A DNA stretch of 64,000 nucleotides, taken from NCBI GenBank assembly GCA_003170275.1, contig PNAM01000017.1, positions 124,001-188,000 of the forward strand, written 5' to 3'. The translations under genes and the position numbers were made by a program. This document shows positions 40,820 through 47,415 of this stretch, in pieces (position 1 is the stretch's first letter; each line of letters opens with the position of its first letter). The notes under the pieces are model-generated. The model did no database searches. It saw only the letters and a program-made list of their open reading frames with translations, and was not told where the DNA came from. The stretch is from Myxococcales bacterium. Lineage in GTDB: Bacteria > Myxococcota_A > Polyangia > Palsa-1104.

Positions 40820-40828
40820 AAGTTGCGC

Positions 40829-43243
40829 ATGGGCTTTGGCGACTGGCTGCGCGAGCTTCCGTCCAATCCGCTGCTCGCACTCACGCGCTTGTACCGCCGC
40901 CCGTTGCCCCGGGTGAGCGGCACGCTGCGCGCGTCGGGCCTGCGCGCGCCGGTCGAGGTGCTGCGCGACCGCTGGGGCGTGCCGCACATCTATGCGCGCT
41001 CGACCGAGGACGTGGTCTTCGGTCAGGGCTTCGTGCAAGCGCAGGATCGGCTGTGGCAGCTCGAGCTCAACCGGCGCGTCGGTCACGGGCGCCTGGCGGA
41101 GATCTTCGGCGAGCTGGCGTTCGACACCGATCGGCTGTTGCGCACCATCGGCCTCGGGCGCGCCGCGCACCTCAACCTGTCGCGCGCCGACGACGAGAGC
41201 CACATGCTGCTCGACGCGTATTCGCGCGGCGTGAACGCGTACATCGAGCAGAACCGCAAGCGACTGCCGCTCGAGTTCACCCTGCTCCGCCTCGATCCCG
41301 AGCCGTGGCAGCCGATCGACTCGCTCGCGTGGGGCCAGATGATGGCCTGGGGCCTGTCGACCAACTGGGATTCGGAGCTGCTCAACGGCGCGATCGCGTC
41401 GCGCCTCGGCCCCGAGCGCGCGGCGCGGCTGCGCGGCGAGTATCCCAAGGACAATCCGATCATCGTGCCCGGGCAGTCGTGGGGATCGCTGCACGCCGAG
41501 GTGATCGCGGAATTTCGCGGCGCACAGAAGTGGCTGCCGCTCTCCGGCATGCAGGGCATGAGCAACAACTGGGTCGTCGACGGGACCAAGTCGGTGACCG
41601 GCAAGCCGCTGCTCGCCAACGACCCGCACCTCGGCCTGCAGATGCCGTCGATCTGGTACGAGAACCATCTGATCGCGCCCGATCTCGAGGCCACCGGCGT
41701 GTCGCTGCCCGGCGCTCCGGGCGTGGTGATCGGCCACAACGCGCACATCGCTTGGGGCTTCACCGCCGCGGTGCCCGACACTGCCGATCTGTTCATCGAG
41801 AAGCTCGATCCGGCGCAGCCGGGCCGCTACGAATATCAAGGCAAGTGGCACGACGCGCAGATCATCCGCGAGCAGGTGCCGGTCAAGGGCGAGGCGGCGC
41901 GCACCATCGAGATCGTGATCACGCGCCACGGACCGCTGGTCACCAGGCTGAGCCCCATCGCGCCGCCGGGGATGGCGCTGTCGCTGAAATGGATCGGCCA
42001 CGAGGAGAACCACGTCTACCGCGCGCCGCTCGAGCTCAACCGCGCGCGCAACTGGACCGAGTTCGTCGCCGCGGTCGCCGACTGGGACGCGCCGTCCATG
42101 AACGCGGTGTACGCGGATCGCGAAGGGAACATCGGCTACCAGATGACCGGGCGCGTGCCGATCCGCAAGAACGGGCGCGGCCAGACCCCGGTGCCCGGCT
42201 GGACCGGCGAGTACGAGTGGGTGGGGACCATCCCGAAGGACGAGCTGCCGTCGAGCTACAACCCGGCGCAGCACTACTTCGCGTCGGCGAACAACCAGGT
42301 GGCCGGCAAGGAATACCCTCACTTCCTCACCACCGAGACCATGAACGGCTTCCGCGCGCGGCGCATCGTGGCCATGCTCACCGAGAAGGAAAAGCTCTCG
42401 GGCGACGACTTCGCCCGTATGCAGCTCGATCAATACTGCGCGCCGGCCAAGCCGTTCTGCGCGCTGTTGGCCCAGCGCAAGGCGACGATCCTGGCGCAGC
42501 CGATCCTCTCGCCAGTGCACGCGCAGGCCGAGCGCGCGCTCGGGGTGATCGAGCGCTGGGATCACCGGCTCACCGCCGACTCGGTGCCGGGCGCGCTGTA
42601 CGAGCTGACGCAGTACTTCGTGTGCCGGCGCGTGCTCGAGCCGCTGCTCGGCGAGCTCACCGAGCCGGCGCTCGGCGTGGGCTTCCACCCGCTGCTCAAC
42701 CCGGTGATCCTCGGGTACCTCGACCGGACGCAGCTGGTGATCCACGATTTGCTGGTGGCGGACGCGCACGACTGGTGGAAGGGACGCACGCGCGACGAGC
42801 TGCTCGCGCACGCGCTGTACGACGCGCTCCACTACCTGACCACCGCTTGCGGCCCCGAGCTCGACGCGTGGCACTGGGGAACGATCCACTTCGCGGCGTT
42901 CAACCATCCGCTCGGCGCCAAGAAGCCGCTCGACAAGATCTTCAGCCGCGGGCCGTTCCCCTACGGCGGCGACACACACACGGTGTGGCAGGCAGCGTTC
43001 GTGCCGCGGCTGCCGCTGCAGGCAGAGGGCGGGTTCACCGCCTCGTGGCGGCAGATCATCGATCTCTCCGACTGGGACGCCTCGCGCGCGATCCACACCA
43101 CCGGGCAGTCCGGGCACCCGGCGTCCAAGCACTACGACGATATGATTCCGATGTGGTTGAACGGCGAATATCACCCGCTGCTCTGGTCGCGCGCCCGTGT
43201 GGAAGCGCACCTCGAGTCGCGCCTGGACCTGGAGCCGGCCTAG
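40829..43243 (+). CDS. Penicillin-acylase-family Ntn hydrolase
   Basis: An 804-residue amidase precursor of the penicillin G acylase/AHL acylase family, expected to self-cleave into alpha and beta chains. The new N-terminal nucleophile would be Ser245 in GMQGM-SNNWVVDG, and the conserved Asn region is ASANNQVAGKEY. The alpha chain shows FGQGFVQAQDRLWQLEL. Relatives hydrolyse beta-lactam side chains, acyl-homoserine lactones or similar amides. I see no signal peptide before the catalytic domain, which is unusual for this family. ATG 40829 is preferred over the TTG two codons upstream. It overlaps the next GTG by one base. Confidence 0.87.
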   Translation: MGFGDWLRELPSNPLLALTRLYRRPLPRVSGTLRASGLRAPVEVLRDRWGVPHIYARSTEDVVFGQGFVQAQDRLWQLELNRRVGHGRLAEIFGELAFDTDRLLRTIGLGRAAHLNLSRADDESHMLLDAYSRGVNAYIEQNRKRLPLEFTLLRLDPEPWQPIDSLAWGQMMAWGLSTNWDSELLNGAIASRLGPERAARLRGEYPKDNPIIVPGQSWGSLHAEVIAEFRGAQKWLPLSGMQGMSNNWVVDGTKSVTGKPLLANDPHLGLQMPSIWYENHLIAPDLEATGVSLPGAPGVVIGHNAHIAWGFTAAVPDTADLFIEKLDPAQPGRYEYQGKWHDAQIIREQVPVKGEAARTIEIVITRHGPLVTRLSPIAPPGMALSLKWIGHEENHVYRAPLELNRARNWTEFVAAVADWDAPSMNAVYADREGNIGYQMTGRVPIRKNGRGQTPVPGWTGEYEWVGTIPKDELPSSYNPAQHYFASANNQVAGKEYPHFLTTETMNGFRARRIVAMLTEKEKLSGDDFARMQLDQYCAPAKPFCALLAQRKATILAQPILSPVHAQAERALGVIERWDHRLTADSVPGALYELTQYFVCRRVLEPLLGELTEPALGVGFHPLLNPVILGYLDRTQLVIHDLLVADAHDWWKGRTRDELLAHALYDALHYLTTACGPELDAWHWGTIHFAAFNHPLGAKKPLDKIFSRGPFPYGGDTHTVWQAAFVPRLPLQAEGGFTASWRQIIDLSDWDASRAIHTTGQSGHPASKHYDDMIPMWLNGEYHPLLWSRARVEAHLESRLDLEPA

Positions 43244-44880: not shown

Positions 44881-45225
44881 ATGCCCAAGATCGACCTCTT
44901 CTGGAAGCCCGGCTGAACGGGCTGCGTGCGCGCGCGGGAGTTTCTCGCGCAGAAAAAAGGCGAAGGTGAGTTCGGCCTTCGCAATCTCATCAAGGAACCG
45001 CTCAGCGCCGACGAGATCCGCGCGATCGCCAAGCAGGTGGGCGACGCAAAGCTGCTGATCGCCCCGAAGCGGCGCGCCGAGGCGGAGGGCCTCGACGGCG
45101 AGAAGCTGATCGTCTGGCTGGCGGCCGACGGCGCTCATCTGCGACGGCCCATCATCATCGCCGGCAAGAAGGTGACGCTCGGGTTCACCAAGACCACGCC
45201 CGACGAGCTGAAGGGCGCGATCTAA
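44881..45225 (+). CDS. ArsC/Spx-like selenoprotein with in-frame UGA (selenocysteine)
   Basis: Thioredoxin-fold protein of the arsenate-reductase/Spx-like family, 114 residues if TGA at 44914-44916 is read as selenocysteine. Before the TGA the frame gives MPKIDLFWKPG; after it TGCVRAREFL. The joined sequence K-P-G-U-T-G-C-V-R-A-R-E-F-L matches the family pattern P-x-C-x-x-C-[RK]-x-A with Sec for the first Cys. The rest fits too: a LIKEPLSADEIR helix and HLRRPIIIAGKKVTLGF near the end. The hairpin at 44932-44950 resembles a bacterial SECIS. The ORF track gives only 44926-45225 with a false GTG start. The reaction is probably redox; the partner is unknown. selA, selB, selC and selD are not in this window. 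Confidence 0.85.
44914..44916 (+). other. In-frame UGA, predicted selenocysteine codon
   Basis: Codon 12 of the ArsC/Spx-like gene is TGA, exactly where the family has its N-terminal redox Cys. Homologous coding sequence continues on both sides in one frame, and the resolving Cys follows three codons later. Confidence 0.82.
44932..44950 (+). promoter_or_regulatory. SECIS-like hairpin
   Basis: GCGCGGG-AGTTT-CTCGCGC forms seven consecutive pairs (one G-U) and a five-base loop. The stem begins 15 bases after the UGA and the loop 22 bases after it. The loop has G in its second position followed by U, as expected for SelB recognition in bacterial SECIS elements. Structure inferred by eye. Confidence 0.7.
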
Positions 45226-45238
45226 GTCAACGCTGCGC

Positions 45239-46654
45239 TTACAGCACCAGGTTGTCGACCACCTTGGCGAGCGACGCGAGGTTGTTCACCACCTCGACCT
45301 TGTCGCAGTACGGCTCATAGTCGCGCATCGCCGAGTCGCCGAACGCCCACGACAACGGCGGCTCCGGATTCAGCCACAGCACGCGCCGCGCGCGCGCCTT
45401 GACGTCGGCCAGCGCCCACGCCTCGGGCGCGTTGTAGTTGTTGCGCGCGTCGCCGATGATGATCACGGTGGTCTTCTGCGTCACCGTGTCGAGGTGATGC
45501 TCGGCGAAGGTCTTGAACGCGCGCCCGAAGTTCGAGTTGGCGTACACGTTCACCACGCCGCCCGCGTAGGCCACGTCGACCGCGCGCTGCAGCTCGTACT
45601 TCTTGAATAGATCGGTGCACTCGCCGAGATCGCTGACGAACACGAACGAGCGCACCTGCGCGAACAGCTCCTGCAGCGTGAACGCGAACTGCAGCATGAA
45701 GCGCGAGACGTGCCGCACCGAGTCCGAGATGTCGCACAGGATGACCAGGCGCGGCTTGTCGATGCGCCGCTTCTTGTACTTGAGGGTGAACGGCACGCCG
45801 CCGGTGGCCAGCGCGCGCCGGAGCGTGCGACGCGCGTCGAGCCGGCCCTTGCGCTCGACCTTGCGGCGCAGCGCGACCATCTGCTTGAGCTTGCGCGCCA
45901 GCCGCGTCACCTCTTCGCGCAACCGGTAGAGCTCGGCCTCGTTCATCGCGCCGAACGGCTTGTGCTCGAGGATCTGCTTGCGCATCTGCTCCAGGTAATT
46001 CAGGTTGCGCCGCTCGAACTCGTCCGAGACGTAGCCGCGCACCTGGCCGCGCACGCGCTCGAGCTGGCGCGCCGCCGCCTCCATCAGCCGGCGCGCATCG
46101 TCGTCGCCGATCTTCTTGCGCAGCCGTCCTTCGAGGTTGTTCAGCTCCTCCTGCGCCTGGCGAAAGTTGAGCGCCTCGAGCAGGTGCTGCGTGAAGAATC
46201 CGATCTGCAGCGGGTTGACCAGCCGATCGAAGTTGATCTGGATCCCCGCCAACCGGATCAACGCCTCGATCTTCGAGCGCCGAAGGCCCATCCCCATACG
46301 CGCCAGCGGCGACATGCGCGCGGTCTCGTCGGCGAGCATGGCCACCAGCGCCTCGATCTGATCCTCGGAGAACCCCTCCAGCAGCAGCGCCTCGACCAGC
46401 GGCGGCGCGCCGTCCTTCTTCGCCTTGTCGAGAAAGTCGCCGCGCCGGAAGAAGAACAGATCGAACAGCTCGTCGAACGGCTCCTCGTCGGACTTGCGCT
46501 TGACCAGCGTGGCCTGCAGCGCGGCCTTGAGCGACTCGGGGTCTTCGATGCCGACGATCTGCGTCGCGCGCACCAGATCGAGCACCTCGGAGGTCGACAC
46601 GCGCATGCCGTTTCTGCGGCACAGGCGGGTGAACTCGAGGAGCCGGTCGAGCAC
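45239..46654 (-). CDS. CoxE-like von Willebrand factor A domain protein
   Basis: A 471-residue protein with a C-terminal vWA domain. The MIDAS motif DISDS lies in VILCDISDSVRHV, followed by FVFVSDLGECTDLF and TVIIIGDARNNY. This matches the CoxE/YeiK-like proteins that work with MoxR-type AAA+ ATPases in maturing metal enzymes. The N-terminal 250 residues are helical with coiled-coil stretches. No MoxR ATPase is adjacent. The GTG at 46654 overlaps the TlpA-like stop by one base, so translation is coupled. The track's longer version is a false extension. Confidence 0.85.
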   Translation of the reverse strand: MLDRLLEFTRLCRRNGMRVSTSEVLDLVRATQIVGIEDPESLKAALQATLVKRKSDEEPFDELFDLFFFRRGDFLDKAKKDGAPPLVEALLLEGFSEDQIEALVAMLADETARMSPLARMGMGLRRSKIEALIRLAGIQINFDRLVNPLQIGFFTQHLLEALNFRQAQEELNNLEGRLRKKIGDDDARRLMEAAARQLERVRGQVRGYVSDEFERRNLNYLEQMRKQILEHKPFGAMNEAELYRLREEVTRLARKLKQMVALRRKVERKGRLDARRTLRRALATGGVPFTLKYKKRRIDKPRLVILCDISDSVRHVSRFMLQFAFTLQELFAQVRSFVFVSDLGECTDLFKKYELQRAVDVAYAGGVVNVYANSNFGRAFKTFAEHHLDTVTQKTTVIIIGDARNNYNAPEAWALADVKARARRVLWLNPEPPLSWAFGDSAMRDYEPYCDKVEVVNNLASLAKVVDNLVL

Positions 46655-47415
46655 TACTTGGCCATGGCGGCGGTGACCGCGGCGTCGACGGCGTCGGGAT
46701 CCGCCACCGAGACCTCGCGCACCACGCCCTGCCGGTCGATCACCACCATGGTCGGCAACGCGTAGATGCGATAGCTGGACGACACGACCTCGCTGTCGTC
46801 CGACGCGATGGTGTACTTGAGGTTGAACTTCTCGGCCACGGTGGCCACCACCTCGGCCGACTCCGAGGAGATGCCGATCACCTTGAGCCCCTTTTGGCCG
46901 AGCCGCTCGTGCAGCGCTTCGATGTGCGGCATCATCGCCACGCACGGCCTGCACCAGGTGGCGAAGAAATCGATCAGCACCACCTGCCCCTTCAGCGACG
47001 AGAGCTTGCCCAGCTTGGCGCCGGTCAGCACCGCCGGCTGGAAATCCGGCGCGGCCTTGCCCACCAGCGTATCGCGCTGCAGCACGTTCATGTCCGGCTT
47101 GGCCTCGAGCTTGATCGCGACCACCCGCAGCTTGCCGGCCGCGTCGCTGATCTTGAGCTTGATGGTCTTGCCCACGCCCGCGCGCCGCACCGCGCCGATG
47201 AGCACCTGCACGCTGTCGGTCTTCTCCGCGTCGAGCGCGAGCACCTCGTCACCCGCCTTGATGCCCGCCTTCTGCCCCGGCGCGCCCTCCATCACCTCGC
47301 GCACGCGCGTGCCGCCCTGCGAGCCGCGCTCGAGCACCAGCCCGATCCACGGATCGGACGCGTGAGCCACCGACGACAACACGAACAACGAGAGCACGAC
47401 CAGCGACGTCTTCAT
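46654..47415 (-). CDS. Secreted PDZ-TlpA/ResA-type thiol-disulfide oxidoreductase
   Basis: A 253-residue exported protein. After a signal peptide (LVVLSLFVLSSVAHAS), a PDZ-like domain occupies about residues 25-105 (GAPGQKAGIKAGDEVLALD). A TlpA-type thioredoxin domain with active site WCRPC follows at about 115-250. The cis-Pro loop is YALPTMVVI. It probably reduces protein disulfides in the periplasm on a client bound through the PDZ domain. It overlaps the epimerase gene by four bases (ATGA) and the vWA gene by one, so the three form a coupled operon. Confidence 0.9.
   Translation of the reverse strand: MKTSLVVLSLFVLSSVAHASDPWIGLVLERGSQGGTRVREVMEGAPGQKAGIKAGDEVLALDAEKTDSVQVLIGAVRRAGVGKTIKLKISDAAGKLRVVAIKLEAKPDMNVLQRDTLVGKAAPDFQPAVLTGAKLGKLSSLKGQVVLIDFFATWCRPCVAMMPHIEALHERLGQKGLKVIGISSESAEVVATVAEKFNLKYTIASDDSEVVSSSYRIYALPTMVVIDRQGVVREVSVADPDAVDAAVTAAMAK

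Follow-up and report, generated by a model that had tools for sequence, protein, structure and literature searches.

A probable selenoprotein gene of the ArsC/Spx superfamily with UGA at the redox-active cysteine position in a Myxococcales bacterium

The gene at positions 44881-45225 (+ strand) of the window, the 64,000-nucleotide stretch of DNA analysed here, very probably encodes a genuine selenoprotein in which an in-frame UGA specifies the active-site selenocysteine (Sec, U). The case, built on sequence tests, consists of a conserved UGA, a hairpin that follows it, coding constraint on both sides of the codon, the Sec machinery of the same genome and the predicted fold class. Translated with TGA as U, the frame yields a 114-aa protein with an ArsC/Spx-like thioredoxin fold. 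It starts with MPKIDLFWKPG-TGA-ACG-GGC-TGC, continues as MPKIDLFWKPG-U-TGCVRAREFL... and ends at a TAA. The TGA at 44914-44916 (+) is the only in-frame stop within the gene; as Sec12 it replaces the first Cys of a CxxC motif, and the TGC at 44923-44925 (+) encodes the putative resolving Cys15, which gives the active-site motif U-T-G-C. The first-pass annotation had recognized the P-x-C-x-x-C pattern correctly but had written the TGA and the TGC as adjacent codons, whereas a Thr and a Gly codon intervene. It had also expected automatic annotation to truncate or miss the gene. Indeed, the sole ORF that table 11 lists in this frame is the part after the TGA, a 99-aa ORF with a GTG start (44926-45225, +), which is the expected output of a standard gene caller and contains neither strand beta1 nor the redox motif. 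When the entire window was scanned for a TGA near a Cys in CxxU- or UxxC-type spacing, four cases came up, and a recognisable protein was found only at 44914.

Homologues were searched in the family, class and phylum of the window and in GTDB contigs. The resulting protein family has seven distinct members, the window protein and six homologues with 54-65% identity to it: L023 (genome G002), L024 (G001), L040 (G478), L041 (G477), L028 (a deltaproteobacterial MAG) and L029/L030 (a Baikal MAG, with an identical protein in G079). The members span several genera and also extend beyond the order. A search for further members in the class of G079 yielded none, and no close relatives were found in viral contigs. 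The codon for residue 12 is TGA in all seven and a Cys codon in none. The invariant residues include W8-K9-P10-G11-U12-T13-G14-C15, A61-P62-K63, R65, R88 and P90. In a tree of Sec-containing and Cys-containing relatives, the seven members group together with a support of 99/98, and at least three Sec/Cys changes are required among the sampled ArsC/Spx-like proteins. No close homologue with a Cys at the Sec12 position was found, and the Sec/Cys exchange is visible only at about 30% identity. The distant ArsC/Spx homologues do carry Cys there, in agreement with the initial reading that the UGA stands where the first redox Cys would be.

The protein scored 25.5 bits against Pfam ArsC (PF03960; cut-off 24), which places it in the ArsC/Spx superfamily with its thioredoxin-like fold and helical insert. 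The NCBIfam matches, among them Spx, Spx/MgsR, ArsC_rel_Se_1 and Uxx-star, were all far under their cut-offs. The Spx model gave an E value of 4e-11 with 43 bits against a cut-off of 123, and a second Spx-type model gave 30.6 against 75. NF041106 (ArsC_rel_Se_1) gave 22-24 bits against a cut-off of 85 for the window protein and those members that matched at all, and TIGR00014 gave 18 bits against 106. When the family profile was compared with known structures, Spx was matched at an E value of about 1e-12. An AlphaFold model, in which Sec was modelled as Cys, had a pLDDT of 91 and a pTM of 0.83, and Foldseek matched it to structures of Spx and of ArsC-related proteins with TM scores of about 0.8. 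In the alignment to Spx, Sec12 corresponds to Cys10 and Cys15 to Cys13. The Pfam hit and the Spx-like profile and fold matches thus bear out the original proposal of a Sec-dependent ArsC/Spx-like redox protein.

The product is most likely a selenol-based disulfide reductase, or possibly an arsenate reductase, and not a regulator of RNA polymerase. In the catalytic cycle that we envisage, the first step is most likely a selenol attack by Sec12 on a disulfide or some other oxidised compound, with arsenate as one possibility. Cys15 would then resolve the intermediate to form a Se-S bridge, which would be recycled by thioredoxin, glutaredoxin or another thiol. Both the catalytic role of the Sec12 protein and the nature of its substrate are inferred.

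That the protein is a true glutaredoxin-dependent ArsC arsenate reductase appears rather doubtful. The Pfam ArsC score lies barely above its cut-off, and the R/K-P motif is retained as R88-R89-P90. The arginines of ArsC, in the R/K-P motif and near the C-terminus, have catalytic roles. Against this assignment, the C-terminal arginine is replaced by GF, the TIGR00014 score is a small fraction of its cut-off, and no arsenic genes are present among the neighbours examined. A role as a redox-sensing regulator of the Spx/MgsR type, with binding to the C-terminal domain of the RNA polymerase alpha subunit (alpha-CTD), would fit the finding that Spx gives the best matches in both sequence and fold, but we consider it unlikely. 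About seven residues are missing just past the alpha-CTD-binding region of Spx, and the position of Spx Gly52, which we take to have a role in that region, is occupied by A, P or V. The scores far under both Spx cut-offs also argue against such a regulator, as does the selenol itself, since selenols are more typical of catalysts than of regulatory switches.

The genome encodes what is needed to decode the UGA as Sec. The tRNA-Sec scored 74.4 bits (gathering score 47) and was called by ARAGORN as tRNA-SeC with the anticodon TCA. SelB, SelA and SelD scored 305.7, 539.8 and 371.7 bits, respectively, each above its cut-off, so the check for Sec machinery proposed with the initial reading came out in its favour. 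The host genome is a MAG with an estimated contamination of 6%, and the machinery genes are located on other contigs than the window. The pattern recurs across the carrier genomes: tRNA-Sec was detected in six of the seven, the exception being G002, which is 51% complete. SelA is above cut-off in 238 of the 379 genomes of the phylum; because it is so common, its co-occurrence alone is not discriminating. With this machinery, the insertion of Sec at UGA 44914 in the cell is the outcome we would expect. A readthrough of the UGA as Trp or Cys without selenium, through near-cognate suppression or a changed code, would by itself keep the frame open, and UGA does stand for Trp in some bacteria. We judge it very improbable given the complete machinery with its tRNA-Sec and the location of the codon at a site where the superfamily has its redox Cys and a Trp would make no sense. 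UGA as a general sense codon was rejected because TGA serves as the terminal stop of the homologous genes in L023, L029 and L041.

The reading of the UGA as Sec is further strengthened by the way the flanking codons evolve. Upstream of the TGA, 225 codon comparisons among the members showed 26, 43 and 119 differences at the first, second and third codon positions, respectively. The excess at third positions indicates that the segment 5' of the UGA is translated and under protein-coding selection. Downstream, the frame is open to a similar end point in every member. The codons on either side of the UGA evolve as coding sequence. Close homologues start before the UGA and not after it, and the TGA is found in seven separate genomes, which in effect excludes a sequencing error at 44914; neither of the two outcomes that had been named as fatal to the initial proposal was thus observed. 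A true stop, that is, a pseudogene, a sequencing error or the production of the downstream 99-aa ORF alone, can draw on the GTG start at 44926 as the only ORF offered by table 11 and on the lack of a clear ribosome-binding site upstream of the ATG at 44881, but the TGA in all seven members with no other stops, the invariant LxWKPG before it with changes mostly at third positions, and the absence of the first strand and the redox motif from the short ORF exclude it for practical purposes.

A bacterial SECIS element is described as a hairpin shortly after the UGA with a small apical loop that contains a G (PMC1088965). Such a hairpin, GCGCGGGAGUUUCUCGCGC, lies at 44932-44950 (+); it is 19 nt long and begins 15 nt 3' of the UGA. 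It folds with eight base pairs and a GUU loop or, alternatively, with seven base pairs and an AGUUU loop. The latter is the fold that the first-pass annotation had drawn, and the SECIS-like structure that it proposed at this spacing is kept in all seven members. The loop G, the spacing and this conservation fit the description above. In the set of seven, 98% of the pair cells are intact as standard pairs. Among the pair changes, one is a two-sided compensatory change from A-U to G-C and two are one-sided, and the stem is kept throughout. Covariation was weak and not better than in the shuffle control, because five of the eight pairs are invariant and only three vary. Synonymous codons were identical in 82% of comparisons within the hairpin and in 51% outside it (p about 0.003 by permutation), and the best-scoring seven-codon stretch of the gene for synonymous conservation starts six codons past the UGA. 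In this GC-rich stretch the stability of the window hairpin did not differ significantly from that of shuffled sequence (z = +0.29), and folding energy was dropped as evidence; in L028 the predicted minimum is a different fold. A search of the window against Rfam gave no family above its gathering score, and at the locus itself there were only chance matches. We count the hairpin as more than a chance structure because it is conserved, with the TGA present in all seven members, the pairs kept and the synonymous positions constrained. SelB and Sec-tRNA(Sec) would decode UGA 44914 with the aid of this hairpin.

The gene neighbourhood was also inspected. One of the four window neighbours tested recurs, and only in G002. 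It is a CoxE-like VWA protein (45239-46954), downstream of and convergent with the selenoprotein gene and also a neighbour in L023. As it is common to G002 only, the neighbourhood is of little help on function. In the order-level relatives L040 and L041, genes for similar secreted-looking proteins (L040:1947-3296 and L041:1833-2885, both on the - strand) have the selenoprotein gene directly downstream on the same strand, and the two genes possibly form an operon. Elsewhere in the window, 40823-43243 encodes a penicillin amidase family protein (765 bits). The gene at 46654-47415 (-) encodes a PDZ protein with a TlpA/ResA-like thioredoxin domain and the motif WCRPC; among selenoproteins it weakly resembles the WAxxUGC and Trx7/PDZ families, but it has Cys.

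Other ArsC/Spx-like proteins of Myxococcota have a TGA at the same redox position. They are L031 (G043), L048 (G442) and L032/L037 (G257, G008), with the motifs WKSTUTTC, WKKTUTTC and CKRTUSTC, and tRNA-Sec is found in all of their genomes. These apparently represent separate Sec lineages. L048 has a Cys-containing sister, L025, from G003, a genome of the same family as the window. The presence of several Sec-containing ArsC/Spx-like lineages in one phylum suggests that Sec and Cys have been exchanged repeatedly at this active site.

The kind of protein described here is not new. We take cd03032 to be the ArsC_Spx conserved-domain class. Sec-containing ArsC-like proteins were already in a 2006 catalogue (PMC1794560), and a 2008 marine metagenome survey has an entry 'Arsenate reductase 2 (cd03032), UxxC' with 42 sequences (PMC2398784). 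Both NF041106 (UxxC) and TIGR00014 (UxxS) are in a 2026 selenoprotein inventory (PMC13188914). The suggestion of a previously undescribed or uncommon kind of protein, made when the gene was first noticed, is therefore not upheld: ArsC-like UxxC selenoproteins were reported in 2006-2008 and have their own model in NF041106. Our literature searches on Myxococcota selenoproteins and on Sec-containing Spx found no paper. The WKPGUTGC proteins are apparently an undescribed subfamily of a known kind. They fall under the cut-off of every NCBIfam model matched, so automatic annotation would miss the subfamily. Our knowledge of Sec decoding is unchanged by the finding; the Myxococcota selenoproteome gains an apparently undescribed and so far Sec-only subfamily. 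A stronger proposal, in which WKPGUTGC proteins form a Myxococcota subfamily that is Sec-only, has no Cys form and either acts on a novel substrate or senses redox state by means of selenium, is tentative, and we would give it a modest chance at best.

Compared with known systems, the protein is most similar in sequence and fold to Spx (B. subtilis; PDB 1z3e, 3gfk and 6ghb), with a TM score of 0.80 and the CxxC of Spx aligned with UxxC. It differs from Spx in the replacement of Cys10 by Sec, in the shortening past the alpha-CTD-binding region and in scores under the family cut-offs. With the ArsC arsenate reductases and YffB-type proteins (PDB 1rw1, 3f0i and 1i9d) it has the fold and the place of the nucleophile in common, whereas it is far under the TIGR00014 cut-off and the C-terminal catalytic arginine is not conserved. 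The ArsC-type selenoproteins have UxxS where the present family has UxxC. ArsC_rel_Se_1 (NF041106) is likewise a small ArsC-like protein of the superfamily with Sec in the UxxC position, but the window protein, at 22 bits against the cut-off of 85, falls into a subfamily of its own, marked by WKPGUTGC. Arsenate reductase 2 (cd03032) has the same UxxC and, going by its description in the marine survey (PMC2398784), is probably of the same broad kind.
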